DNA of 64,000 nucleotides. It comes from Anaeropeptidivorans aminofermentans (GTDB taxonomy: Bacteria; Bacillota; Clostridia; Lachnospirales; UBA5962). Below, piece after piece: positions 46,669 through 60,067 of the stretch. Made by a program: the position numbers and the translations under genes. The stretch covers positions 3,162,001 through 3,226,000 of the forward strand of contig NZ_OW711693.1 in NCBI RefSeq assembly GCF_940670685.1, in the 5' to 3' direction. The notes under the pieces were generated by a model. The model was not told where the DNA came from. It worked only from the letters and a program-made list of their open reading frames with translations, and searched no databases. Positions within the stretch are counted from its first letter, which is position 1. Each line of letters starts with the position of its first letter.

Positions 46669-48441
46669 TTATAATAAGTATTTGCTCCCAATGCTTTGCT
46701 TGCAGATTTTCTTAAGCTTCGCCATTTCTACAGTCATTTCAGATAAGGTATTGTATTTATTGCTTAAAACGGCAACTACAGAAAGAGACAAAAGAGGAAA
46801 ATCCTCCTCCGTTCCATGTCTGTTTTTGGTGGTTATATAGCCTTTTTCCAGATCATGGCGGTTATAAAATTCTATAATAGAGGAATCAAAATCCTGTATT
46901 ATTTTTTTACAAATCGGCTCTATATCATCGCTGTGTACAATAGCCACGAAATCGTCTCCGCCGATATGGCCTATGAAATCATCGTCTGATCCAATGGTTT
47001 TTTTTAAAATCTGAGCAAGGCATTTTATTATTCGGTCGCCGTTTTCAAAGCCGTAAACATCATTATATGCCTTAAAATTATCAATATCCAAATACAATAT
47101 GAAAGCCTTGGACCGGGAAAAAATATTTTCTTCAAGCTTTTTTTCAATGAGAATATTTCCCGGAAGCCCCGATAAAGGATTCAAATGCTTTGCGTTATTG
47201 ACTTCTACCTGAATGGTCTTTTCAAGCAGGTCCTTTACGGTTACGATACCGGAATATTTTCCCTCCTTGGTTATGGAAATGAAATCATAAAGGCGGTTAT
47301 ATTCTCTGCCCATTGCTTTCTTCGCTACATTTTCTATACTTTCGTAATAGTCTACCTGCAAAAACGTCTTACTCATAATGTCCTTTACAGGTCTTTTGGA
47401 ATATAAATTAAAACCGTAAAGCCCCGAAAGATTACGGTAAAGCTCATTTCTTGTAATTACGCCTTTTATTATTTCGTCTTCTGTTATGCAAAAGCCTGAT
47501 ATGGAAGGGTCCTTTTCCATAAGCTCATAAACCTGATTGATAAGCATTTTGGGGGTTATGGTGTTTTGCATTGTGGATATATTGCCTATATAAAGCTCCG
47601 ATGACTTCTGGTCGAAAAGATGGTTCTTTCTGCGGTTTGCTTCATTGATTGTAAGAATTACGTCGTTTGATATGGGCCTTGTTTCAGGCCCCGGCTTTTG
47701 GATAAAAAAGCCCTGGCCGTAATGAATCCCTATATCTATAAGCTTTAAAAGCTCTTTTTCCGTTTCTATGCCTTCGGCAACAAGATATGTATTTGTAAGA
47801 GAAGCAAATTCGGCAAAGCTTTTTATAAGGGATTGCCTTGTAACATCTTTATCGATATCCCTGATAAGGTTCATATCAAGCTTAATAAAATGGGGGTTTA
47901 TATCGGAAATCATATTCAGGCCGGAATATCCTGCCCCGGCATCGTCTATGGCTATTTTATAATTCTGATTTTTATAGTTATTGATGGTTCTTACCAAATC
48001 AGAAATATTATCGATAGACCCTCTTTCCGTAATTTCAAATATAATATTTTCCGGGTCCATTCCGTATTTAAAAAGATACTCTTTTGTAAAGCCCTTTTTA
48101 AATTTTATATCGTGTATTATTTTAGGGTTTACGTTTAAAAACAGCTTAAGCTTTGTTTTAAGGCTGTGAAATGCTTCGATTGCCTTCGTTCTGCATATAA
48201 GCTCCAAATCCCATGTTTTTTCAAGTTTCTCGGCGTACTCAAAAAGTATATTGGGGCTTTGCATTTCTGTATCCTCAGGGCCTCTGCTCAGGGCTTCATA
48301 TCCGAATATAGAACCGTCCCTTAAAGATATAATGGGCTGAAAAACAGTAGTTATACTTTTTCTGTTTAGCACGTCGAAAAATTGTTCTTTAAGCGGCGCC
48401 AGAGATTCCTCATATTTATCTGTCAAATAGTTATTATTCAT
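46669..48441 (-). CDS. EAL - CBS pair - GGDDF protein (cyclic di-GMP turnover)
   Basis: 590 residues without membrane helices. EAL phosphodiesterase domain about 20-265 with YEALSRG, FLNVNPK, IIFEITERG, DDAGAGYSGLN, KLD and AEGIETEKE, so the catalytic set looks complete. Middle region about 285-425 has two CBS-like motifs (ISGFCITEDEIIKGVITRNEL and YSGIVTVKDLL) that may bind nucleotides. C-terminal cyclase-like domain about 430-590 has LDIDNFKAYNDVYG but GGDDF instead of GGDEF, so cyclase activity is doubtful and it may serve as a GTP sensor. ATG at 48441 with AAGGAGG upstream. Confidence 0.9.
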   Translation of the reverse strand: MNNNYLTDKYEESLAPLKEQFFDVLNRKSITTVFQPIISLRDGSIFGYEALSRGPEDTEMQSPNILFEYAEKLEKTWDLELICRTKAIEAFHSLKTKLKLFLNVNPKIIHDIKFKKGFTKEYLFKYGMDPENIIFEITERGSIDNISDLVRTINNYKNQNYKIAIDDAGAGYSGLNMISDINPHFIKLDMNLIRDIDKDVTRQSLIKSFAEFASLTNTYLVAEGIETEKELLKLIDIGIHYGQGFFIQKPGPETRPISNDVILTINEANRRKNHLFDQKSSELYIGNISTMQNTITPKMLINQVYELMEKDPSISGFCITEDEIIKGVITRNELYRNLSGLYGFNLYSKRPVKDIMSKTFLQVDYYESIENVAKKAMGREYNRLYDFISITKEGKYSGIVTVKDLLEKTIQVEVNNAKHLNPLSGLPGNILIEKKLEENIFSRSKAFILYLDIDNFKAYNDVYGFENGDRIIKCLAQILKKTIGSDDDFIGHIGGDDFVAIVHSDDIEPICKKIIQDFDSSIIEFYNRHDLEKGYITTKNRHGTEEDFPLLSLSVVAVLSNKYNTLSEMTVEMAKLKKICKQSIGSKYLL

Positions 48442-48796
48442 TAGCCCCTCCTTGACGAACTCCCCTTGCTCCAACATTTATCTCAATTTACAGTATCAGC
48501 ATATTAAATTATTACACCATGATTGTATACATGTTTATAAATTTTGTCTATACGTTTATATTATATTAATGTAAGAAATCTGTTAAATTTTTCCTATAAT
48601 ATTGCTTCTTGGAAGTTTATGTCAGAGATGTCCCGTTAAATAAAAGTGCAGATAAAAAAGGGAATATCGAGCCAAATAAGCAGTATACTTGCTAAGGGGC
48701 CCTGATGAAAAGCGACGTAATAGCACCCTTTTAGATAATTGCTTTTTATCTTTCTTTATATGCTGAGCAAATTTTTATTGCTTTTTAAACCTACTT
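48442..48796. other. Gap without recognised features
   Basis: AT-rich spacer upstream of the EAL gene. No gene or conserved structure seen. Confidence 0.4.
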
Positions 48797-48927
48797 TGTA
48801 TTTTGGATTAAGCAGGAACAGAACCGTAGATTTCTTTTGATTAAAAAGGTACCGCCACTGAAGGAAAGCTTTATTTTTGGGCCTACAGCAATAGTTTTTG
48901 TTACTTTCTTATAAGAAATTTATAATA
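48797..48927. repeat. F1 repeat copy 16, strongly diverged
   Basis: Keeps GGATTAAGCAGGAACAGAAC, ACCGCCACTGAAGGAAA, TTTTTGTTACTTTCTTATAA and AAATTTATAATA; tips decayed. Confidence 0.55.
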
Positions 48928-48954
48928 AATACCAAAATCAATTTGTTTGAAAGC

Positions 48955-48986
48955 AAAAAGCAGAAGTGATATCACTTCTGCTTTTT
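48955..48986. terminator. Terminator after agrD
   Basis: AAAAAGCAGAAGTGAT followed by its perfect complement (32-bp palindrome) with extra T on the right and A on the left. It would end agrBD transcription leftward. Confidence 0.85.
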
Positions 48987-49096
48987 TTATGTATGCTGTT
49001 TCTTCTACCGGCTTTTTGTAATATCTGCATGAAAGCGTATCAAAGAATTTTTAAAAATCCATTGCCCCTATTTCCATGCTTATTACTGCGACTTTA

Positions 49097-49249
49097 TTAC
49101 TTCTTGAACTTTAAGATTTCTTCAGGCATCTTAGGCTGATTGAAGCATAAGAAGCATGCTGGAGAAATGGAGTTGATTCCCATAAATAATGCCATTGATG
49201 CAACTCCTGTAGCCATAGTTCTGATAAGGTACATTTGAATTTTTTTCAT
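49097..49249 (-). CDS. agrD: AgrD-type autoinducing peptide precursor
   Basis: 50 residues, missed by ordinary length cut-offs. Amphipathic N-terminus MKKIQMYLIRTMATGVAS, core SPACFLCF, then an acidic tail NQPKMPEEILKFKK that matches the AgrD tail pattern P.xPEEL. By analogy with staphylococcal AgrD, where a five-residue thiolactone ring precedes the tail, the signal ring would be C33-F-L-C-F37. AAGGAGG lies before the ATG in the 22-base gap after agrB. The precursor is trimmed and cyclised by AgrB and sensed by AgrC. Confidence 0.9.
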   Translation of the reverse strand: MKKIQMYLIRTMATGVASMALFMGINSISPACFLCFNQPKMPEEILKFKK

Positions 49250-49271
49250 GATAAATCCTCCTTAGTATTTT

Positions 49272-49865
49272 TTATTTGTTTATGTTTAATGTTTTAGAGT
49301 AAACAAGTTTTCCAATAAGCATAACAGCTGAGGATACGAAAAGACCTACGCTTATTAAACTGGCGGATTCTATCCTATGGGTGGCAATAAAAAATATAAT
49401 AATACAGAGAAAAATTAAAAATGCTGTATTTGCCTCTCGCCTAAGCCTTGAAATGTCGTCAGAGCTTAGGGGCTTATTGGGATGTTCTGCAGGAGCCAGA
49501 AAATGATTTAATAAAAAAGATACGGATACTAAAAATATTACTAAGTATGTAGAAGAAAATAATTTTATGTAATTAAGCAGCGCCATATAGGATAGCAGCA
49601 TAAATATCATTAATAGTGAACATTTAAAATGCGTTTCAGCATGATAGCCGCCTATCAGCTGTCTAAAAATAAAGAAAGGTGCAAGAAAAAGTAAAATCTC
49701 TATATAGCAGTTAAATAACAGGGCTATCATTAAAATTATGACGATGTTGATAGCTGTAGATAAAACCAGCTCCATGCCGTAAGCATATACCCTTACGTCT
49801 TCCTCATTGATTACTTTTTGGTGTACCAAAAAATGAGTTATATCCAATGCAAATTTCGGCAACAA
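49272..49865 (-). CDS. agrB: AgrB-type peptide-cyclising membrane protease
   Basis: 197 residues with about six helices. The AgrB core LIGGYHAETHFKCS carries the catalytic histidine (HAETH) and cysteine, and FLAPAEHPNKPL follows. It removes the AgrD tail and forms the thiolactone. TTG start with GAGGTGA six bases upstream. Directly upstream of agrD; its promoter carries a pair of LytTR-like repeats. Confidence 0.93.
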   Translation of the reverse strand: MLPKFALDITHFLVHQKVINEEDVRVYAYGMELVLSTAINIVIILMIALLFNCYIEILLFLAPFFIFRQLIGGYHAETHFKCSLLMIFMLLSYMALLNYIKLFSSTYLVIFLVSVSFLLNHFLAPAEHPNKPLSSDDISRLRREANTAFLIFLCIIIFFIATHRIESASLISVGLFVSSAVMLIGKLVYSKTLNINK

Positions 49866-49884
49866 TTGACTTCACCTCATAATA

Positions 49885-49913
49885 AATATAATACTTAAAA
49901 GAAAACTTGTCTA
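49885..49913 (-). promoter_or_regulatory. agrBD promoter
   Basis: Minus strand TAGACA (49908-49913), 17-base spacer, TATATT (49885-49890). The expected start leaves only a very short leader before the agrB ribosome site. Confidence 0.65.
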
Positions 49914-49922
49914 ACCCCTTGG

Positions 49923-49955
49923 CCCAAGATGTATTTGGAACGACCTAAGATGCAT
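49923..49955 (-). promoter_or_regulatory. Tandem LytTR-type (AgrA) site upstream of agrBD
   Basis: Minus strand direct repeats ATGCATCTTAGG (49944-49955) and ATACATCTTGGG (49923-49934), 21 bp apart, ending nine bases before the -35. Geometry is typical of LytTR response-regulator activation; a similar pair stands before the RiPP operon. Confidence 0.7.
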
Positions 49956-50008
49956 CTTGACGGCCGTTTTCGACAAAACTTCTTTTTATTAGACAGGATA
50001 ATTCGATT

Positions 50009-50042
50009 AAAAAAGGTATTTCTTTTAAAAGAAATACCTTTC
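50009..50042 (-). terminator. Terminator after agrC
   Basis: AAAGGTATTTCTTTT paired with AAAAGAAATACCTTT; an A-run on the plus strand provides the T-run for leftward transcription. It separates agrAC from agrBD. Confidence 0.8.
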
Positions 50043-50199
50043 AAACAATAAATATACAGCCTTTTACAGCTTCTTTCAAAATGCGAAAGTGGATTATTAT
50101 AGCAGAGGGGTGATGCTCATCGCCCTGTAACTATAGTCTTTAAACAGAACTAAAGAAATATTTATAAGGCTTGCTAATTTTCATTATTGCTTTATACTT

Positions 50200-51483
50200 T
50201 TATTCGTTTTTAGAATTATCAAGCAATACGCTCAGAACAAACATCCCGTCATTGTAATTATAATTCATTATTCCGCCGATTCTATCAACAGAAGCTTCTA
50301 TGCTTTTCATGCCAATGCCGTGGGCAAGAGGATTGCTTTTTTTCGTCACCATATTATTTACATCGACGTAATCGGAAGTGTTTTTAATCATTATGGCAAG
50401 CTTATTTTCTATTTCGTTTATCCTTACAAAAATTTCACTGTTTTCCTTCCGGCTTCTTTCACAGGCCTCTATGCTGTTATCCAGCGCATTTCCCAAAAGA
50501 CGGGCAAGCTCTATTTTATTAAGATAAATAGCCTTTATAAAAATATGGGCGTCAAAATTAATCCCCAGCTCTTTTGCATATTGAGCTTTAATATTAATCA
50601 AAGAGTCTATAATAGCCTCTCCCGTATAGTATACGGCTTCATTTGTCCTAAGCTCGTTTTCCAAGGCATGAAGAGACTCTTCCGCCATATCCTTTTGGTT
50701 TATATTGATTAAATCGGCGATTACATTGATTTGATTTCTTATGTCATGCTTAAGCTCCCTAAGCTGATTATAGGATTCTTGAAGCAATTTGTAATTTCTT
50801 TCTTCATGGGCAAGTATCTGCTCCATTATGGAAAGCCGAAGCTTATTGGAATAAGATTCGATTAAATCGAACACCGCCCAGTTTATGTATAAAAGCCCTG
50901 CCACGCAAAACACATAAAGCATAATCCCCTGATGGCTTTGGGAATTGAGAAGAGAATAAAGAGTGACATATAAAATAAGTGAACTTAGCACTGGCATCAA
51001 TATAATCAAAAGCCAATAGCTGCCGGGAATCTCCTTATCCTTTTTCTTAACGAGCCTGTTATTATAAACTACAAACCAGAAATATATTATTTTTGTTCCT
51101 ATCATTCCTATTATACGGCTTGTGCCTTGGGTCAGTATATCCTTGGGAAGGCCGATATTTGCTATGGTCATAAGGCTTATAAATATTATTTCAGCAATAA
51201 AAATAAGCACTACAAACAAAGCTGAATAAAAAATGCTTTTGGCGAATTTAACCCTATATATAGTATTCGCTATAATGACCAGCACAGTAAATGTCACCGT
51301 AATCAGTATAAGCTGGTCCGATGTGAAAAGACCGGTAGTGAAAAGTATAATGCCGCCCAAAGTATATATCAGGGCTATTATGCTTCTCTTTAGGCCCTTA
51401 TAGGGCAGCAATCCGGAAAAGTAAATAAATACTATCATAAATTCAAAGCAAACGTTTACTGCCTCCACTAAATACCAGTTCAT
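50200..51483 (-). CDS. agrC: AgrC-type sensor histidine kinase
   Basis: 427 residues. About six or seven membrane helices in the first 210 residues, then a HPK10-type kinase core: YNQLRELKHDIRNQIN with the phosphorylated histidine, LLGNALDNSIEAC as N-box, and a glycine box HGIGMKSIE (GHKL ATPase). Senses the AgrD-derived peptide and phosphorylates the LytTR regulator. Begins four bases after the agrA stop codon, so the two are one operon with agrA first, the reverse of the staphylococcal order. Confidence 0.9.
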   Translation of the reverse strand: MNWYLVEAVNVCFEFMIVFIYFSGLLPYKGLKRSIIALIYTLGGIILFTTGLFTSDQLILITVTFTVLVIIANTIYRVKFAKSIFYSALFVVLIFIAEIIFISLMTIANIGLPKDILTQGTSRIIGMIGTKIIYFWFVVYNNRLVKKKDKEIPGSYWLLIILMPVLSSLILYVTLYSLLNSQSHQGIMLYVFCVAGLLYINWAVFDLIESYSNKLRLSIMEQILAHEERNYKLLQESYNQLRELKHDIRNQINVIADLININQKDMAEESLHALENELRTNEAVYYTGEAIIDSLINIKAQYAKELGINFDAHIFIKAIYLNKIELARLLGNALDNSIEACERSRKENSEIFVRINEIENKLAIMIKNTSDYVDVNNMVTKKSNPLAHGIGMKSIEASVDRIGGIMNYNYNDGMFVLSVLLDNSKNE

Positions 51484-51487
51484 TCTG

Positions 51488-52189
51488 TCACTCCATAATA
51501 TAGTTTAAATATGCATCAGAAATCTCTTTTTTAAAATTTCTGCTTACTGGCACCATTTCCCCAGATTTCATTAATAATCCATCTTTAGTTATTTTGTCTA
51601 TTGCCGTTAAATTAACCAAATAGCTTTTGTGAGGCTTTTTAAACTGATCTCCTATAAGCTCCTTTTCTATATCGCATAAAGGCTTGTTATACTCGTACTG
51701 CTTCTGGTCAACCGTATGTAAAGTAACCTTTTTCCGATAAACTTCAAAAAACGATATTTCATCAACGTATACCTTCTTAAACATATCCCTTGTATAAATA
51801 TCTAGGGTTTTATATTTAGAATTATACTCTTTTAAAATATCCCTTAATTTTTGAATATAAAAGCTTTCATGCTGCCCCTTAATCAAATATCTAAAAGCCC
51901 CGACTTCATAACCGTCGATGGAAAACTCCTTATAGTTAGTCAAAAATACGATGATTACCCTTTTATGGTCCTTACGGATTTTTCTGGCTGTCTCAAGCCC
52001 GTTAATCCCCTGCATTTCAATATCAAGAAATATAATATCAAAATATTCTGTAAGAAGCGCCTCCAACAGAGCCTCACCGCTGAAATATTTGAATATTTCA
52101 TAGCTTTTACTATCTGGGATAAGGGTTTTTATCCATCTTTCAACTTCCTGAGATTCTCTTTCCTGATCGTCGCAAATAGCTATTTTCAA
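51488..52189 (-). CDS. agrA: AgrA-type LytTR response regulator
   Basis: 233 residues. Receiver domain about 1-120 with acidic pocket CDD, phosphoacceptor DIIFLDIEMQGINGLE and conserved lysine, then a LytTR DNA-binding domain (VDEISFFEVYRKKVTLHT, HKSYLVNLTAI, VPVSRNFKKEI). It should activate agrBD and, from the shared repeats, the RiPP operon. An extended -10 TGTTATAAT is present at 52254-52262 (minus strand). Confidence 0.9.
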   Translation of the reverse strand: MKIAICDDQERESQEVERWIKTLIPDSKSYEIFKYFSGEALLEALLTEYFDIIFLDIEMQGINGLETARKIRKDHKRVIIVFLTNYKEFSIDGYEVGAFRYLIKGQHESFYIQKLRDILKEYNSKYKTLDIYTRDMFKKVYVDEISFFEVYRKKVTLHTVDQKQYEYNKPLCDIEKELIGDQFKKPHKSYLVNLTAIDKITKDGLLMKSGEMVPVSRNFKKEISDAYLNYIME

Positions 52190-52610
52190 TATAAATCACC
52201 TGCAATCTATGACTTCTATAACGACAGATACAAAAATCAAATATTTATTCCCCATTATAACATTTATAGTATACTTAACATATAAAGTATTTTATTATTT
52301 CCAAAAATACAACAAACTTTGACTAAGGGGCTAAAATAAATTTCTTGTAATTTAGCAAATTCACTTTTCCATATAAAATCTCTTTGTATAAGTTTATCAT
52401 AAAATTGCCGTTTTTGTTAAAAATATGTTCTTTCTTTGCTTACAATTGTAAATACGGCTTTATCAAGGGTATCGCTTTTAAAGTATTCATAACTTTCTTC
52501 TTAATATATTTTTGTCCTTTCATGTTAAATATCTAGCTAGTTATAGCTTATCCTTTGATTATACAGGACGCAAGCTATTTTTTACAAACTTTATAATATA
52601 AATCTGCAAA
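52190..52610. other. AT-rich gap upstream of agrA
   Basis: Contains the likely extended -10 promoter of agrA (52254-52262) and no gene. No LytTR-type repeat pair was noticed here. Confidence 0.45.
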
Positions 52611-52656
52611 AAAAGAATACGGCCCTGTTCTTTTAACGAACAGCGCCGTATTCTTT
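52611..52656 (-). terminator. Terminator after the RiPP precursor gene
   Basis: AAAGAATACGGC pairs with GCCGTATTCTTT, with inner CTGTTC / GAACAG; A-run on the plus strand. Separates the RiPP operon from agrA. Confidence 0.85.
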
Positions 52657-52727
52657 CTTAAATATCAGCCGTATATGGGTATCAATAAATATGGAATTAG
52701 TCTTTTTATATGCGTAAATTCAAGAAA

Positions 52728-52904
52728 TTATATGCTTTCTTCTACGCTTATCCAATTGTATGCATAGTAGTTTATAATTGCCTCATTGCTATCGCTTGGG
52801 CTTTCGTTACGTGGCTGACGGTAAAACGTTCCGCTATTTCCGTAAGTGCCCAGAGCAATTATGGTATTTTCTTCAAAACGTACCTTTCTATTAAGCTTCT
52901 TCAT
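52728..52904 (-). CDS. RiPP precursor peptide with Clo7bot-like leader and Cys-free core
   Basis: 58 residues. MKKLNRKVRFEENTIIALG resembles the leader of Clo7bot/CLI_3235-type precursors (MKKLxKK...TVEAY). The rest has no cysteine at all but is rich in aromatic and small polar residues: Y21, F27, Y28, then INYYAYNW at 44-51. AAAGGAAAG precedes the ATG at 52904; an upstream extension to 52958 has no site. Last gene of the operon rSAM - maturation protein - carrier-like protein - precursor, followed by a terminator. Since Clo7bot cores are normally Cys-rich, the modification here must differ. No export or protease gene is adjacent. Confidence 0.75.
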   Translation of the reverse strand: MKKLNRKVRFEENTIIALGTYGNSGTFYRQPRNESPSDSNEAIINYYAYNWISVEESI

Positions 52905-52990
52905 TGTAACTTTCCTTTCATAAACTATTATACTTTTTATTTTAAGGCGTATTCTCACCGGATACTTTTAAGCCGGCTGAATATTCCCAA

Positions 52991-53263
52991 TTAAACATAT
53001 ATATTTTCAAAACTCATGGCCTCGATAATGCCTTCTGCAAGGCTTGCTATTGTAATAAGCTTTTTATCGGCTTGATAAAACTTTCTTACGGGTATATGGT
53101 ACTCGTCCTCTATTTTATAAAAAAGCTCAATCACATCATAGACTTTTAACCCAAGAGAACATGTAAAAAGGCTTATTTCGTAATCCTCAACGTCTACGTA
53201 AGAGATATCCTTTATAAATTTTCTTATGCTTTTACATAAGTCCTTTTTGTTCGTAAATATCAC
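52991..53263 (-). CDS. Acyl-carrier-related peptide maturation protein
   Basis: 90 residues. SLGLKVYDVIELFYKIEDEYHIPV has the helix pattern of an acyl carrier protein, but the phosphopantetheine serine motif DSL is replaced by KVY, so no prosthetic group can be attached. This matches the carrier-related proteins found in Clo7bot-type gene sets, where it may hold the leader peptide or bridge enzymes. GTG start two bases after the stop of the previous gene, suggesting coupled translation. Confidence 0.7.
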   Translation of the reverse strand: MIFTNKKDLCKSIRKFIKDISYVDVEDYEISLFTCSLGLKVYDVIELFYKIEDEYHIPVRKFYQADKKLITIASLAEGIIEAMSFENIYV

Positions 53264-53265
53264 CT

Positions 53266-54354
53266 CTAAATCACAAGAAGATTGTTGGAAAGCTCCTCAA
53301 TAATCCGGTCGTATATATTATTTGCAGAATTCTCGTCCATTACGTTAAATACACGGTATTTTCTTGCGGTTTTATCCTCAAGCTTTTTCATAACATTTTT
53401 CATCTGGACAATGGATACTTTTGGCTCTTCCCGAGATATTAGAGGCTCATATTTCAATTCGCTTCCCGCCATATGAAAATATACCGAATCGCAGTTAAGC
53501 CTGTATTTGCATATGTTTTTCATATTGCAATAATAATAGTCGCTATATACCGCGGAATAAACAGACAGTATTTCAATATCAGGGTTTAGGGCATTTGCAA
53601 ATATAAAAGGCAGCGTTCCGAAATTATTATGGTAATCCATATTGAAAGGAAGGATTGCATCTGGTACACTTACGAGAAAAATATCCGGTTCTTCCTCCTG
53701 CTCCCAGTTTCTGAAATAATTATTTAAATTCGTGATTTTTTCTGTATCCGATACTTCATTTGCAAACATAAATTCCGGGATACTTCTTATTCCGAATAAT
53801 TCGCTGTAGGGGTTTCCGCTTATGCAAAGAGGCTTGTACCCCATTTGTTCCAAATATTTTTTAAAGGTCAATAGAATCTCAAATTTATTACAGTACTGCC
53901 CAAGGCCTAAGATAAAAACGATGGGCGTGTTTATGCGGCCCATTTTTGCCCTTTTGTCAAATTGATATTTCGTGTCTGAGCCTAAAGATCGGTATGTAAA
54001 TTCCGGAAAGTCCTCATTTGACTTTATATATTTTTCAATATCTTTAGAAAGTATTATTTTTTTCTTCTGATCGACTGCTTGGTTTATTTCTTTAATCAAG
54101 AGCTTGTGATTTATATATCTGAAATCGCAGTAATTAAATAATACCGCATCGCACACATCAAGGCTTTCCTTATAGTTTATTGTAAGCGGCTTATTTAAAA
54201 AACTTCCTCCGTCAACTACGCTTGCGTCCTTTCCGTCAAGGCCTGCGGATTCTGCCACAATATATTTAAAAGGAATATGTTCCGCAAGCAAGGAATCGTA
54301 TCTTGCCAAGGCAGAAGAATTCTTATCAAAATTATATATAAGTAATTTTTCCAT
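53266..54354 (-). CDS. Peptide maturation system protein of Clo7bot-type clusters
   Basis: 362 residues, soluble. MEKLLIYNFDKNSSALARYD at the start, a glycine-rich FILGLGQYCNKFEI in the middle that looks like a nucleotide-binding segment, ISGNPYSELFGI, and an end with YIEE-type helices. It corresponds to the uncharacterised protein that accompanies the CcpM-type radical SAM enzyme in clostridial Cys-rich peptide systems; biochemical role unknown. AAGGAGG before ATG. Ten bases after the radical SAM gene. Confidence 0.65.
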   Translation of the reverse strand: MEKLLIYNFDKNSSALARYDSLLAEHIPFKYIVAESAGLDGKDASVVDGGSFLNKPLTINYKESLDVCDAVLFNYCDFRYINHKLLIKEINQAVDQKKKIILSKDIEKYIKSNEDFPEFTYRSLGSDTKYQFDKRAKMGRINTPIVFILGLGQYCNKFEILLTFKKYLEQMGYKPLCISGNPYSELFGIRSIPEFMFANEVSDTEKITNLNNYFRNWEQEEEPDIFLVSVPDAILPFNMDYHNNFGTLPFIFANALNPDIEILSVYSAVYSDYYYCNMKNICKYRLNCDSVYFHMAGSELKYEPLISREEPKVSIVQMKNVMKKLEDKTARKYRVFNVMDENSANNIYDRIIEELSNNLLVI

Positions 54355-54364
54355 ATAATCCTCC

Positions 54365-55720
54365 TTATATATAACAATTACGCTCCTTTAAATAACAAAT
54401 ATCAGTAAAGCTTACTAAAGTTTTGTTTTTGGTCTCCCTGCAATTATTCAGCTTGCATTTTTTAGATGAACCGTCCCCGCTTGTGTCTGTAAGCATTGCC
54501 GCGCATATATTGCAGTAATAAAAATTCCAACACCGCTTACACTCGTTTTCTGTTATTTTTCCTATGTTAATAAGATTTTTTATCTTATCCGGCAGGTATC
54601 CTCCATGGATATCCCCTATTTTATAATCCTCTTCCATTTCAGTTGCCTTTTCACAAGGGTAAAAATCGCCATAAACATCAATAAAGAGCTTCTTTTCTCC
54701 CGGAATGCAAGTGCCTCCCGGGTGGCTTATAGACGGTGTCCCCTTATAGGGGTTCAGCATATTACGCACCTCATATATAGAAGAAAGGGCCTCTTTAAAC
54801 ATAGGATTTACATGATCCTCATCAATTAAGCCCAGCTGATAAAGCCTTGCCTTAAAAAATTCATAATTATATGCCTCATCGTATTCCTCACTGTGTATAA
54901 TTTCTTTTTTGCAGCCGGAACAGGCGGTTAAATTGCTTTCTGAAAAGAAATCAAGAATTTCTTTAAAATCGCTTTGGGAGGAGGTTTCTGTATTAAAAAA
55001 TATTTTGCTTTTATAAAACTTCGGATATGCCTTTTTTATTTTTATAAGGTTTCGGATAAGGGAGTCGAAATGCCCTTTTCCCTGGGGAAGTTTTTTATTA
55101 TTCTTTGAAGTATCAAGGCTAATAATCAAAGAGAAATCCTTTTCAATTAAAGGCCTTATATTTTCAAGGTTTAGTAACGAAGGATTTACGGTAATGGCAT
55201 AATTTACAAATTTATCGGGATATTTTTCTTCAATATAAGCCATACATTCATTTACAAGCTTTCTTTGAAGAAGGGCGCCTTCTCCGTAAAAGGAAAGGGT
55301 AAAGCAGCTTACATTTGAAGAGCGCCTTATGCCAAAATCTATGGATTCCTTAGCTATTTCTATCGTCATTTTCTTATTGCTATTCATTCTTTCGGTATAG
55401 CGCCCTGAATAGGCACAGTATCCGCATCTTGAGCTGCAATTTTTAGCAATCTCCAAAACCAAGTGATTCAAGCTACAGCTTAAGATATCTTCAAGGCGGT
55501 CTGTGTAGGGATGATATATTTCTTCTACAATGCTTTCAAGAAGCACGCCCTTTTTCTGATACCGTTCTAAAGTTCCTTCGTGTTCTTCAATATTTTCAAA
55601 AAGCTCAAGCTCTTTTAAAGCCATATAATCCTTTTCAGGAATCTGAAGAATAGTATTACTGTATCGGTCATATACATAAAAGTTTTTAGGCGTGGTAAAA
55701 GTCTTAAATACGTAGTTCAT
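54365..55720 (-). CDS. Radical SAM/SPASM peptide maturase (CcpM-like)
   Basis: 451 residues. N-terminal region about 1-85 may be a leader-binding domain (YVFKTFTTPKNFYVYDRYSN). Radical SAM cluster motif CSSRCGYCAYSG (CxxxCxxC) near residue 100, then FYGEGALL. C-terminal SPASM-type cysteines in GGTCIPGEKKLFIDVYG, FYPCEKA, CKRCWNFYYCNIC and later pairs bind auxiliary iron-sulfur clusters. ATG at 55720 with GGGGGG upstream. First gene of the operon; it probably modifies the precursor at 52728. With no cysteine in that core, a carbon-carbon, carbon-oxygen or epimerisation reaction is more likely than a thioether. Confidence 0.85.
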   Translation of the reverse strand: MNYVFKTFTTPKNFYVYDRYSNTILQIPEKDYMALKELELFENIEEHEGTLERYQKKGVLLESIVEEIYHPYTDRLEDILSCSLNHLVLEIAKNCSSRCGYCAYSGRYTERMNSNKKMTIEIAKESIDFGIRRSSNVSCFTLSFYGEGALLQRKLVNECMAYIEEKYPDKFVNYAITVNPSLLNLENIRPLIEKDFSLIISLDTSKNNKKLPQGKGHFDSLIRNLIKIKKAYPKFYKSKIFFNTETSSQSDFKEILDFFSESNLTACSGCKKEIIHSEEYDEAYNYEFFKARLYQLGLIDEDHVNPMFKEALSSIYEVRNMLNPYKGTPSISHPGGTCIPGEKKLFIDVYGDFYPCEKATEMEEDYKIGDIHGGYLPDKIKNLINIGKITENECKRCWNFYYCNICAAMLTDTSGDGSSKKCKLNNCRETKNKTLVSFTDICYLKERNCYI

Positions 55721-55826
55721 ATGCAATTCCCCCCTTCACATTAATCTATATTATTGATGCAAAAACTATATGATGGTTCTGATCTATGTAAACCTTATAA
55801 AAGGATTCATCTATATCCTACTTTAA

Positions 55827-55855
55827 ATTTTACAGCATAACTGACTTACCGACAA
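55827..55855 (-). promoter_or_regulatory. Promoter of the RiPP operon
   Basis: Minus strand TTGTCG (55850-55855), 17-base spacer, TAAAAT (55827-55832), about 100 bases upstream of the radical SAM gene. Confidence 0.6.
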
Positions 55856-55864
55856 TTGATATGG

Positions 55865-55897
55865 CATTAGATGTAGATCAAGGGTCACAAGATACTT
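55865..55897 (-). promoter_or_regulatory. LytTR-like repeat pair upstream of the RiPP operon
   Basis: Minus strand AAGTATCTTGTG (55886-55897) and CTACATCTAATG (55865-55876), 21 bp apart and nine bases from the -35. Period and distance equal those before agrBD, and the ATCT core is shared. Confidence 0.6.
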
Positions 55898-56127
55898 TTT
55901 CATGGTGAAAATTGTAGTTTTATATTATAATAATAACCAAATTGTATAAATATAGATTATTATGATATCCATTAGGCAATATATTTAAATGGGTTTATTT
56001 CTTTTACTTTGCAGTTATGTAAGTATTTACCATAGTCAGCGTATTTGAAAAAATTTTTTTACAAAAGGATTAAAAATACAGTAAAATTAAAGCCAAGGCT
56101 TTAACCCATTCTTCTTTACTTAGACAT

Positions 56128-56155
56128 AAAAAACTCCCTTTTCAGGGAGTTTTTC
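56128..56155. terminator. Bidirectional terminator
   Basis: AAAAACTCCCT / AGGGAGTTTTT stem with A and T runs; convergence point between the gene at 56301 and the RiPP promoter region. Confidence 0.8.
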
Positions 56156-56166
56156 TCTTTTTCTTA

Positions 56167-56305
56167 TATAGTAAATTTATCATGAAGAAGCAGCAAAAGC
56201 CTATTCCCTTAAGGCTCAAAAACACGGATTTCCTTCGGAAACGGCACATTTTTGAGCCTTCATGAATATACGGCTTTGCTACTATTTAACTTTAAATTTA
56301 CTATA
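56167..56305. repeat. F1 repeat copy 17, overlapping a stop codon
   Basis: 139 bp, perfect TATAGTAAATTT / AAATTTACTATA tips, reverse orientation (GATTTCCTTCGGAAACGG). Its right tip TATAG supplies the last codon base(s) and the TAG stop of the gene ending at 56301. Confidence 0.9.
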
Positions 56306-56729
56306 TACTTTCGCCATATGTTTCTGCAATAGCCTTAGGGGAGTAGCTAAGCATCTTTCTAAATTCCACAGAAGCTTCCTTGATGGCTTCTTTATTGTAT
56401 GCACCGGCTTTCTTCAAGGATTCTATCTTATTTTTTAATATAAAATAGTCTTCCAAGACCTTCTCCTCTTTAAAATAAAGAATAACAATTTTATCCTTAA
56501 TTTCTTCATCGGCGGCAAGGTCTGTAGAAATGAAATTATCCTCGGGAAAGCTTAATACATGAAACTTTTCAGCTATTTCTGCTGCCGCTTCTTTAATTTC
56601 AGCATATTCGCTTTTCGTAAGAATCGGGCTTAACGCCAGGTTTTTAACCTCTTGAGAAACGATTTCACAAAATGCTTCTATCATGCCTAAATCAAATGAA
56701 TTTTTATGGAATCCGGGTAATTTATCCAA
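56301..56729 (-). CDS. Conserved-looking hypothetical protein
   Basis: 142 residues from a TTG at 56729 with AGGAGG seven bases upstream. Soluble, mostly alpha-helical, acidic (LTKSEYAEIKEAAAEIAEKF, VEFRKMLSYSPKAIAETYG). One short beta-like stretch KDKIVILYF. No family recognised. Its last codons (ESI) and the TAG stop coincide with the tip of F1 copy 17, so the repeat may have shortened the gene. A longer reading from 56819 lacks a ribosome site. Confidence 0.65.
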   Translation of the reverse strand: MDKLPGFHKNSFDLGMIEAFCEIVSQEVKNLALSPILTKSEYAEIKEAAAEIAEKFHVLSFPEDNFISTDLAADEEIKDKIVILYFKEEKVLEDYFILKNKIESLKKAGAYNKEAIKEASVEFRKMLSYSPKAIAETYGESI

Positions 56730-56848
56730 TGATATCCTCCTATACAATACATACACCATATATTTATCCGTATTTTCGGCCTCACGCTTATTGCAGTGAA
56801 TAAACTTAAATAAGACCAAGTTTATTTGCTATGGACCTAAGAAAAACT

Positions 56849-56890
56849 TATTAAACTTAAAATCAAAGACAGTTTTTAAGTTTAATAAGT
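56849..56890. other. Palindromic hairpin
   Basis: CTTATTAAACTTAAAA and TTTTTAAGTTTAATAAG form a 15-16 bp AT-rich stem between two hypothetical genes. No T-run. Confidence 0.5.
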
Positions 56891-56930
56891 ATACATAAGC
56901 TTTAAAAATACTTGCTCTGTATAAAAAGTA

Positions 56931-56955
56931 TGCCGCTTTTAAAAGCGGCATTTTA
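56931..56955 (-). terminator. Terminator of the gene at 56961
   Basis: TGCCGCTTTT / AAAAGCGGCA perfect palindrome; on the minus strand it is followed by TACTTTTTAT. Confidence 0.75.
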
Positions 56956-56960
56956 AATGA

Positions 56961-57251
56961 TTAACTTATTTGAATTTCCTTTGCTTCTTCCGGCTTGAAA
57001 TCATTTTCCAAGTCGTATATATTATGGGAGGTGAAATCTCTAAGCTGTCTATCCTCTAAGGAATAGCATCTCATAAAACGATTGGCATTCACCATTGTCC
57101 AATGCTCGGCATCCCATGTTAAGTATCCGTCTTCGTCTGTTTTTTTATTGTGAAGTATGAAATCTACCTGTCTATTATCTCTCATTAAATCAATAAGGCT
57201 TTTATAGGTTACTTCAAGTTCCTTTTTATGGATTACGTCGTAAGCTTTCAT
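56961..57251 (-). CDS. Small hypothetical protein
   Basis: 96 residues from ATG at 57251 with GGAGG four bases upstream. MKAYDVIHKKELEVTYKSLIDLM, then WDAEHWTMVNANRFMRCYS and an acidic end. Soluble, no signal or membrane segment, one cysteine. No family recognised. Upstream readings to 57314 are rejected for lack of a ribosome site. Confidence 0.65.
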   Translation of the reverse strand: MKAYDVIHKKELEVTYKSLIDLMRDNRQVDFILHNKKTDEDGYLTWDAEHWTMVNANRFMRCYSLEDRQLRDFTSHNIYDLENDFKPEEAKEIQIS

Positions 57252-57442
57252 AATTCCTCCGTATAATAAAATAATATTTGCAAAGCTTCCATCTCGCTTC
57301 GTCATATAGTTCAAGTATATAACTGAATTATCAATAAATCAACAATAAATATAAGAAAGAGCTTGTTTACGGAAGGGTATTTATTATATTTATAGATGGA
57401 AATCCTTATGAATATCCTGATGTTGAAATCTGTAAAGCATAT

Positions 57443-60067
57443 TTATTTTCTATCCTCTGCAAACCCGTATTTTATTTTAATCCGGTCTAATTTTTCAAGC
57501 ATAGGCTCTGCCGCAAGCCAAAGGAAAAATACTGTTGCAGCGGCTTGAATACAATCCATTGGGAATCCGGAAGCATAATAGGTCAATATGATATTTAAAT
57601 TCAAATCCTTTGACACCATAACGGCAGAAGCAAAGTTCATGATGCCTCCGTATATAATAATAGCCGATAAAGCCCCGAATGTGCATAGGGATACTTTATT
57701 GCGCCTTAAAACCCTTCTGCTGAATATAACCCCCGATAAAAATCCGATAATCCCCATGGAAAACATCTGCCATGGGGTCCAAGGTCCTTGGCCCATGATG
57801 ATATTTGAAATAAGCACTGTCATTGCCCCTATAAGAAAACCTGTTTCGCTGCCCAAGGCAATCCCTGAAATAATAACCAGCGCCATAACAGGCTTAAACT
57901 GAGGCAGCATGAAAAAAGCAGCCCTTCCTGCTACCCCTAAAGCGCATAATACAGCTATAAGAACCAATTCCCTCGCCTGGGGCTTCCGCCCTTCAAAGAT
58001 AAGAAAAAACGGCGCCATACATTCCAAGAGGACAAGCAGCCCAATGAGATAATATTTTTTGTGGTCAAAATAATAAGCGCCTGCAAATAAAGTCAAGGGA
58101 ATAAGAAGTAAAATTATAAATACCGCCCCTCTGGTGCCTTTAGAAAGTTTTCCTTTTTCCTTCGGCCTCTGAACATCAAAAGAAGCATCAGCGGGCCTTC
58201 CTATGGATAGTATTAGCCCAAATAACCCTCCTATAAGCAAAGCAGCTATTTTAATATGACTTTCATTAAATGAGGCCGCATCATTTCCTCTAATAACCTG
58301 AATAAGAGAAAATAAAACCCCAAGGGCCGATATACTCCCTATGATTTTTTGCCATAGAGGACGCTTCTTTAATTCCTTTTTGCTATCTGCTTTCGAAGGC
58401 TTCGGCAAAGGCTCCTTCTGCTCCGGAAGCTCAGGTTCTGAAGGAATTTCTCCTCCGCAAGCGATAATCACATCTTCTGCCGTAATTGCATTTGGTATGA
58501 TGCTTCTTGCCATACGATTGGCAGAAGTTGTGTAAAAGCTGTTTCCTGAGAAGAATTCTCTTGGGGTGCCTTCCGTAACAATATCCCCGTCAAAAAACAA
58601 AGCGCATCGATGGGCATATTTTCCGCAGAATTCAATGTCGTGGCTCACCATTAAAACCGTCATGGACTTTTGTATAAGAGAATTTATAATCCCTGCAAAG
58701 ACCTGCTTAAATTCAGCATCAAGCCCCTTTGTAGGCTCGTCCAGAAGCAAAATATCCGGCTCAAGAAGTAAAACCTTCCCTAAGGCAGCTCTTTGCTGCT
58801 CTCCCCCTGAAAAGTCGTAGGGGTGACGGTCAAGGAGACCCTCCAGCCTGCAAAGGCTTACTATGTGAGAAATTTTTCTTTCTCTTTCCTCTTCTGTAGT
58901 GTTTTCTATATCAATTACTTCCTCCAAATCTTCTCTGACGGTTTTTTTAATAAAAAGCGCCTGAGGGTTTTGCGGAAGCATACCTATTTTCCCACTTATA
59001 TTCACTGTTCCCCGATAGGGCTTATTGAGTTTTCCTAGGAGCTTAAGGCATGTGGTCTTTCCTGTGGCGTTACCCCCAAGAAGGGTCATAAATTCCCCTT
59101 GATGAACCTTTAAAGAAAGGCCCTTAATTACATCGGGAAGCCCTTTCTCATATTTAAACCATAGATCCTCTGCAAAAATGCTTACTTTCTCCAAAGGCTT
59201 CGGCGGAGAAGGAAATGCTATTTCTTTTATGGGGTTTTCCCCGGCATATGCCGTAAGCCATTTTCGCCCGTCCCCTACAGTAATCGGGCAGGGCGCTTTA
59301 TTTTCTACCGCCGACCAAATACGCATGGGAGAAGGCATCCCAAGAAACATTCCATGGCCTGTGTTTTTTAGAGCAATGGCAGCTTCTTTTGGGCTTCCTT
59401 CTGTTATTATCTTTCCTTTATCCATTACCGCAACATAGCTTGCAAGGGGAAAGGCCTCTTCAAGGCGATGCTCCGTAAGTATTACGGTAGTGCCTAATTC
59501 CCTGTTAATTTTTCCGACAACAGAAAGGAAATCAGAAGCGGCAATGGGGTCAAGCTGGCTGGTAGGCTCATCAAGAATCAATACCTCCGGCTGCATAACC
59601 ATAATGGAGGCTAAATTAAGCATCTGCTTCTGGCCGCCTGATAATTCTGTTACATCTTTATAAAACCAGCTTTCGATACCGAAAAAAGACGCCGTCTCGC
59701 TTACCCGCCTGCGAATTGCAGGCGTATCATAGCCAAGGCTTTCAAGGCCGAAGGCAAGCTCATGCCATACCTTATCTGTAACAATTTGATTTTCAGGGCT
59801 TTGCATTACAAAGCCAATAGCCCTGCTTTGCTCTTTTGAGCCTATTTCGGCGAGGGGAATGCCTTTAAAGTATATTTCCCCTGCTCTGGTTCCGTAAGGC
59901 GTAAGAACGCTTTTAAGCTGCCTTAAAAGGGTAGATTTGCCGCAGCCGGAAGGCCCGCATAATATCATAAACTCCCCTTGATTTATTTTAAGGGTAAAAT
60001 CGTCAATTGCTTTCATCGTCTGCTTAGGATAAATAAAGCTTAAATTTCTGATTGCAAACGTCTCCAT
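57443..60067 (-). CDS. ECF transporter fusion: two ATPases plus S component
   Basis: 874 residues. First ATPase about 1-240 (Walker A CGPSGCGKST, signature ELSGGQKQ, LILDEPTSQLD); second about 295-520 (LGGNATGKTTC, DFSGGEQQRAALGK, LLLDEPTKGLD). A charged Pro/Glu linker about 540-575 leads to four membrane helices and then, from about 695, an ECF S-component-like domain (LVLIAVLCALGVAGRAAF, PQFKPVMALVIISGIALG, MGQGPWTPWQMF) of the type seen in CbrT-like cobalamin carriers. EcfA, EcfA' and S in one chain is unusual. It overlaps ecfT by 28 bases and lies behind a B12 riboswitch, so cobalamin or a corrinoid is the likely substrate. ATG 60067 with GGGAGG upstream. Confidence 0.88.
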   Translation of the reverse strand: METFAIRNLSFIYPKQTMKAIDDFTLKINQGEFMILCGPSGCGKSTLLRQLKSVLTPYGTRAGEIYFKGIPLAEIGSKEQSRAIGFVMQSPENQIVTDKVWHELAFGLESLGYDTPAIRRRVSETASFFGIESWFYKDVTELSGGQKQMLNLASIMVMQPEVLILDEPTSQLDPIAASDFLSVVGKINRELGTTVILTEHRLEEAFPLASYVAVMDKGKIITEGSPKEAAIALKNTGHGMFLGMPSPMRIWSAVENKAPCPITVGDGRKWLTAYAGENPIKEIAFPSPPKPLEKVSIFAEDLWFKYEKGLPDVIKGLSLKVHQGEFMTLLGGNATGKTTCLKLLGKLNKPYRGTVNISGKIGMLPQNPQALFIKKTVREDLEEVIDIENTTEEERERKISHIVSLCRLEGLLDRHPYDFSGGEQQRAALGKVLLLEPDILLLDEPTKGLDAEFKQVFAGIINSLIQKSMTVLMVSHDIEFCGKYAHRCALFFDGDIVTEGTPREFFSGNSFYTTSANRMARSIIPNAITAEDVIIACGGEIPSEPELPEQKEPLPKPSKADSKKELKKRPLWQKIIGSISALGVLFSLIQVIRGNDAASFNESHIKIAALLIGGLFGLILSIGRPADASFDVQRPKEKGKLSKGTRGAVFIILLLIPLTLFAGAYYFDHKKYYLIGLLVLLECMAPFFLIFEGRKPQARELVLIAVLCALGVAGRAAFFMLPQFKPVMALVIISGIALGSETGFLIGAMTVLISNIIMGQGPWTPWQMFSMGIIGFLSGVIFSRRVLRRNKVSLCTFGALSAIIIYGGIMNFASAVMVSKDLNLNIILTYYASGFPMDCIQAAATVFFLWLAAEPMLEKLDRIKIKYGFAEDRK

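Follow-up and report, generated by a model that had tools for sequence, protein, structure and literature searches.

In Anaeropeptidivorans aminofermentans, a complete set of agr quorum sensing genes lies next to an operon for a RiPP, which raises the question whether one regulator serves both and whether the peptide is made in response to cell density. The window analysed here is a stretch of 64,000 nucleotides, and the two repeat-pair sites at issue, their promoters and all genes concerned are located on its minus strand. A preliminary description of this DNA proposed that identical promoter architecture ties the RiPP operon to agr. We regard activation of both the agrBD and the RiPP promoter by AgrA as the most likely mechanism, and hold this reading with good confidence.

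The agr genes and the RiPP operon

The agr genes are intact and follow each other in the order A-C-B-D. The gene agrA (51488..52189) encodes a response regulator with a LytTR DNA-binding domain (66.2 bits, above the Pfam cut-off), while agrC (50200..51483) encodes a GHKL-type sensor kinase (67.2 bits) and agrB (49272..49865, with a TTG start) an AgrB peptidase (PF04647, 124.9 bits), both likewise above cut-off. The last gene, agrD (49097..49249), reaches 37.1 bits for TIGR04223, with a cut-off of 19. AgrB, AgrD, an AgrC-type kinase and a LytTR-type AgrA are thus found together, as is characteristic of an agr system, and the AgrB of the window is the sole AgrB match in the genome. AgrD is predicted to yield the thiolactone peptide CFLCF, which lies ahead of an NQPKMPEE tail. 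A perfect inverted repeat of 30 bp followed by a T-run (50012-50041) is a probable terminator 3' of agrC.

The RiPP operon contains a gene for a CcpM-like radical SAM/SPASM peptide maturase (54365..55720). The ORF as listed starts at a TTG (55726), and alignment with relatives favors the ATG at 55720. With 399.9 bits the protein stays below the TIGR04068 cut-off of 500, but this is its best family by far, and the maturase is therefore considered a divergent relative of CcpM. It is accompanied by a TIGR04066-family peptide maturation system protein (53266..54354; 268.7 bits, cut-off 200), a TIGR04069-like acyl-carrier-related protein that remains below the family cut-off (52991..53263; 24.7 bits, cut-off 70) and a candidate RiPP precursor of 58 amino acids, MKKLNRKVRFEENTIIALG..., that has no Cys and matches TIGR04065 weakly and with its leader (52728..52904; 11.5 bits, cut-off 26). 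A terminator-like hairpin with a T-run, read directly from the sequence of the same strand, is present between this operon and agrA (52612..52660), so that the two are probably separate transcripts.

Two repeat pairs with a common layout

Upstream of agrBD, a putative AgrA-type direct repeat pair (49955-49923) consists of ATGCATCTTAGG (49955-49944), N9 and ATACATCTTGGG (49934-49923) in a 21-bp register. The agrBD promoter (49885..49913) that follows has TAGACA as -35 (49913-49908), a 17-bp spacer and TATATT as -10 (49890-49885), a match of 10/12. Upstream of the RiPP operon, the corresponding putative pair (55897-55865) consists of AAGTATCTTGTG (55897-55886), N9 and CTACATCTAATG (55876-55865), again in a 21-bp register, and is followed by a promoter (55827..55855) with TTGTCG as -35 (55855-55850), a 17-bp spacer and TAAAAT as -10 (55832-55827). 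This promoter matches at 9/12, its -35 being weak (4/6). The -10 of agrBD crowds the ribosome-binding site, so that the transcript would start at this site or just before it.

Both sites have the layout 12 bp, N9, 12 bp, 9 bp, -35, 17 bp, -10, and the positions, the distance of 21 bp between the repeats, the 9 bp before the -35 and the 17-bp spacers are all as first described. The term identical, used for the promoter architecture as a whole, holds for this geometry only, because the letters of the matching repeats agree at 8/12 and 8/12, together 16/24. Direct repeats 20-22 bp apart and just 5' of the -35, the hallmark of LytTR-activated promoters, are present at both sites. The geometry is that of an established arrangement, in which the LytTR direct repeats are in most cases separated by 12 bp and stand about 10 bp 5' of the -35, also at bacteriocin promoters (PMC6193735). 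That these are sites for a LytTR-type AgrA, two helical turns apart, is supported by their fit to this general geometry and by the LytTR domain of AgrA. Since the geometry is common to LytTR activators (PMC6193735), it ties no promoters to one regulator by itself; the proposed connection between the RiPP operon and agr stands through the shared repeat letters.

Repeat motifs and agr-CcpM loci in other genomes

In 14 of 44 regions upstream of agrB in relatives, the best direct repeat has a spacing of 21, and every other spacing occurs at most 4 times. In the genome G196, GACATCTTA-N12-GACATCTTA precedes agrB and represents the core of the window motif, and a pair ACATCTT-N14-ACATCTT is common to the window and the G196 agrB promoter. 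G196 was encountered through this repeat and not through its AgrA protein, which, of those at the loci compared, comes closest to the window AgrA (34% identity). The 21-bp repeat was not found in the agrB promoters of the same-family genomes G005 and G006, indicating that the motif evidently drifts quickly. The search for a close orthologue of the locus found none (AgrB at most 34%, maturase at most 37% identical).

We used the maturase alignment to scan GTDB species genomes and obtained 79 CcpM-type loci, which cover 1.38 Mb in total. An agrB gene lies within 10 kb in 15 of these loci, on fourteen contigs, while the chance expectation is well under one agrB in 1.38 Mb, given that relatives at order level have, by our own estimate, about one AgrB in every 4 Mb. 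The Lachnospiraceae loci carry a different repeat, with TTTCTGCA occurring twice, 20 or 21 bp apart, before agrB, agrA and CcpM operons. We gathered 46 such pairs from these loci, with at most one mismatch and regardless of function. They align on a -35 TTG whose first base lies 15 bases beyond that of the second repeat (T at this position in 96%), with a TATAAT-like -10 after a 16-bp spacer, and many of them are located 5' of agrB, agrA and CcpM operons. On six contigs (L088, L102, L105/L148, L123, L131, L138) both agrB and the CcpM operon have a pair. The Lachnospiraceae, with a different AgrA and different letters, are by these sequences wired in the same way as the window. The agr-CcpM locus L117 has a shared-repeat score of 73, compared to 54 for shuffles; shared repeats in L121, L135 and L140 were not convincing, so that the wiring is not demonstrated in all agr-CcpM loci. 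These pairings suggest that switching on CcpM-type peptides by agr may be a recurring design in gut bacteria.

In two further genomes, G092 and G192 (loci L014 and L019), agrB and agrD stand directly before the CcpM maturase gene in one direction. The G092 genome has seven AgrB matches.

Other LytTR regulators

The genome encodes five LytTR regulators besides AgrA, and the RiPP promoter might be controlled by one of these, having the same geometry because this is general to LytTR activators and a letter likeness that is partly fortuitous. The spacing of 21 bp and the distance of about 10 bp to the -35 are indeed general (PMC6193735), and the letters are alike at just 16/24. However, a scan of the stretches around the other LytTR genes (L003 and L005-L008) revealed no agr-like pair with promoter, the ACATCTT core recurs at the independent agrB promoter of G196, and the agr and RiPP operons adjoin, as they do in many other genomes, which makes control by another LytTR regulator unlikely.

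Chance and the phase of the repeats

A blind four-way repeat search compared all word pairs at fixed spacing between the agrC-agrB gap (334 bp) and the 574 bp 5' of the RiPP operon, with rare bases weighted more and without use of the letters from the preliminary description. The top result, with a score of 90.2, has spacing 21 and recovers the described repeats, shifted by two bases, while every other spacing from 15 to 30 scores 46-59. Dinucleotide shuffles (n = 300) give 56.3 ± 4.7 with a maximum of 79.5, and none of the 300 reaches 90.2. When the RiPP region was ranked with 374 real 574-bp tiles from this genome, its score of 84.8 was surpassed only where the agr promoter overlapped itself.

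It is nevertheless conceivable that the RiPP pair is a chance match and that the operon has an ordinary promoter. This would agree with the best unrelated tiles, which come within a few points of the RiPP region (83.8 and 81.4 vs 84.8), and with an unweighted identity score, which is weaker and is reached by 12/300 shuffles. Against it stand the 21-bp spacing, found blind, the other genomes that are wired likewise, and the offset to the -35 and -10, which is shared with agr and occurs nowhere else in what was scanned. Matches of 9/12 or more to a -35/-10 stand at this offset in 0.14% of positions. Of 473,672 positions in the same genome, 241 have a fair pair score, and the -35/-10 at the offset is present only in agr and RiPP. 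The phase of the repeats relative to the -35/-10 is therefore the discriminating feature, the shared promoter architecture is real, well-phased and non-random, and a chance match is very unlikely.

The preliminary description also recommended looking for the motif elsewhere in the genome. In all 3.76 Mb, no sites other than those of agr and RiPP come within one mismatch of the joint 33-bp pattern; this uniqueness indicates rarity and not independent support, because the pattern was built from both sites. When scored against the agr pair only, a few sites elsewhere exceed the RiPP pair, none of them with a promoter at the offset. Examples are L057, which lies inside a coding region, and L062, which points against the neighboring genes; both were rejected. 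A loose 8+8-bp pattern gave hundreds of matches, close to its own control, and was dropped. Rfam found no RNA family in 48000-57500, so the upstream regions cannot be put down to a known RNA element.

The rejected L062 pair (about 1501-1533, G000:C1:1129441-1129473) is intergenic and closely agr-like, but lacks a promoter at the offset, and no gene follows it in the same direction. Either chance or a small transcript missing from the annotation could account for it.

Proposed regulation by AgrA

In the reading that we prefer, activation of both promoters by AgrA, AgrB would process AgrD and export it as a cyclic peptide, which AgrC would sense and answer by phosphorylating AgrA. Two LytTR domains of AgrA would then bind the ATCTT-type pair, which adjoins the -35 and whose two repeats, separated by two helical turns, lie on the same face of the DNA. 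Bound AgrA would recruit RNA polymerase at agrBD, resulting in positive feedback, and at the operon for CcpM, TIGR04066, ACP and the precursor, so that the RiPP would be made at high cell density. The density-dependent transcription of the RiPP operon under AgrA that was predicted at the outset is supported by its fit to a genome with only one AgrB, to the LytTR domain, to the G196 motif and to the pairing in the Lachnospiraceae. Binding by AgrA, activation and not repression, dependence on density, and the modification of the precursor at all are what we infer. The weak points are the agreement at 16/24 letters, the weak -35 of the RiPP promoter, the -10 of agrBD close to the ribosome-binding site, the five other LytTR regulators and the lack of close orthologues. 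A further alternative is that AgrA occupies both promoters but acts on the RiPP operon as a repressor or only together with another factor, with an output that falls or is unchanged at high density. It is the least probable of the alternatives and can hardly be expected: although the sign of regulation cannot be read from binding sites alone, a site immediately 5' of a weak -35 is an activator position, like that at LytTR promoters already described (PMC6193735).

A maturase without GGEP and a precursor without cysteine

The product of the operon, described simply as a RiPP before, may not be an ordinary CcpM product. The maturase contains the CxxxCxxC and SPASM cysteines, but not the intact combination of CxxxCxxC and GGEP, having GEGA instead (FYGEGALLQ). 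In an alignment of 96 sequences, GGEP is absent only here and kept by all 95 relatives. The window maturase deviates at 9/45 nearly invariant columns, and only two sequences, both from one other locus, deviate more. The candidate precursor has a leader (MKKLNRKV) similar to that of CLI_3235 precursors (MKKLGKK), but the peptide does not qualify as a Cys-rich TIGR04065 precursor; convincing precursor relatives have three or more cysteines each, and that of the window is alone in having none. Thioether chemistry on cysteine is consequently excluded for the window peptide, while both another modification and a retired enzyme are possible. Genes for an exporter or a leader protease were not seen next to the operon (52190-55726). 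The loci of relatives, by contrast, contain a subtilisin-like protease and an ABC exporter; in the window genome, the single weak protease match is about 320 kb distant.

Comparison with known systems

In Staphylococcus aureus, the LytTR protein AgrA binds two direct repeats 5' of the agr promoters P2 and P3 (PMC4227749). The window likewise has two direct repeats upstream of its agr promoter, to which its AgrA is expected to bind. In contrast to P2/P3, which have suboptimal spacers of 18/20 bp and a promoter-proximal repeat centered near -60, the window has 17-bp spacers and a closer site, and the source on P2/P3 names no RiPP target (PMC4227749). LytTR systems of streptococci and lactic acid bacteria combine autoregulation with bacteriocin targets (PMC6193735). 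They resemble the window in repeat geometry and in the combination of targets that is presumed for it, but their inputs are membrane inhibitor proteins and not an agr thiolactone, and their bacteriocins are of other kinds (PMC6193735).

In Clostridium acetobutylicum, Agr controls CA_C0082, a LanM-like gene whose product has lost the zinc motif; a reporter decreased 4-6 fold in agrA and agrB mutants and increased 6-fold when peptide was added to the agrB mutant (PMC10301443). As in the window, a RiPP-enzyme-like gene lies beside agr and its enzyme lacks a catalytic motif, and the switching by AgrA and a cyclic peptide that is demonstrated there is presumed in the window (PMC10301443). The parallel between the GGEP-less maturase and the zinc-less CA_C0082 is suggestive only. 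CA_C0082 is a single lanthipeptide-synthetase-like gene with no radical SAM chemistry (PMC10301443), unlike the CcpM/TIGR04066/TIGR04069 operon with its precursor candidate.

The SacP23 cluster of Paenibacillus polymyxa is of the CLI_3235/CcpM type with TIGR04066/68/69, and quorum sensing is not mentioned for it (PMC10731318). It shares with the window a TIGR04068 maturase, TIGR04066, TIGR04069 and a short CLI_3235-family precursor, although TIGR04068 and TIGR04069 are below cut-off in the window. The SacP23 precursor is Cys-rich and the cluster includes a protease and an exporter (PMC10731318), whereas the window has neither Cys nor GGEP and neither of these genes was seen beside its operon.

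There is precedent for LytTR repeats upstream of bacteriocin genes and for a LanM-like gene under the control of Agr. A pairing of agr with CcpM appears to be undescribed in the papers searched, and no paper linking agr to CcpM-type clusters was found in open-access full text. The arrangement in the window reads as a variant of the quorum control that LytTR regulators exert on bacteriocin-like genes, in which agr provides the input and an unusual CcpM-type operon the output. A more far-reaching and distinctly tentative idea is that agr has captured a CcpM-type operon with changed chemistry, in which no thioethers are formed and a differently modified or unmodified peptide serves as density-controlled effector or signal, as a counterpart to the zinc-less LanM-like Agr effector known from C. 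acetobutylicum, and that the agr-CcpM wiring is a widespread regulon of gut Clostridia with repeat letters that change between AgrAs.

If regulation by AgrA is true, the natural trigger of a large and mostly uncharacterised family of gut-bacterial RiPPs would be the matching agr cyclic peptide, which would offer a direct way to switch on such silent clusters and a simple test of the product of the odd cysteine-free member of the family. The TTTCTGCA pairs would then be a ready-made box for reading the agr regulon in Lachnospiraceae.

The Lachnospiraceae agr-CcpM islands (L088, L102, L105, L123, L131, L138 and L148) have up to eight TTTCTGCA pairs each. Such pairs are also found there before protease and exporter genes and before unknown genes, resulting in what appears to be a readable agr regulon.
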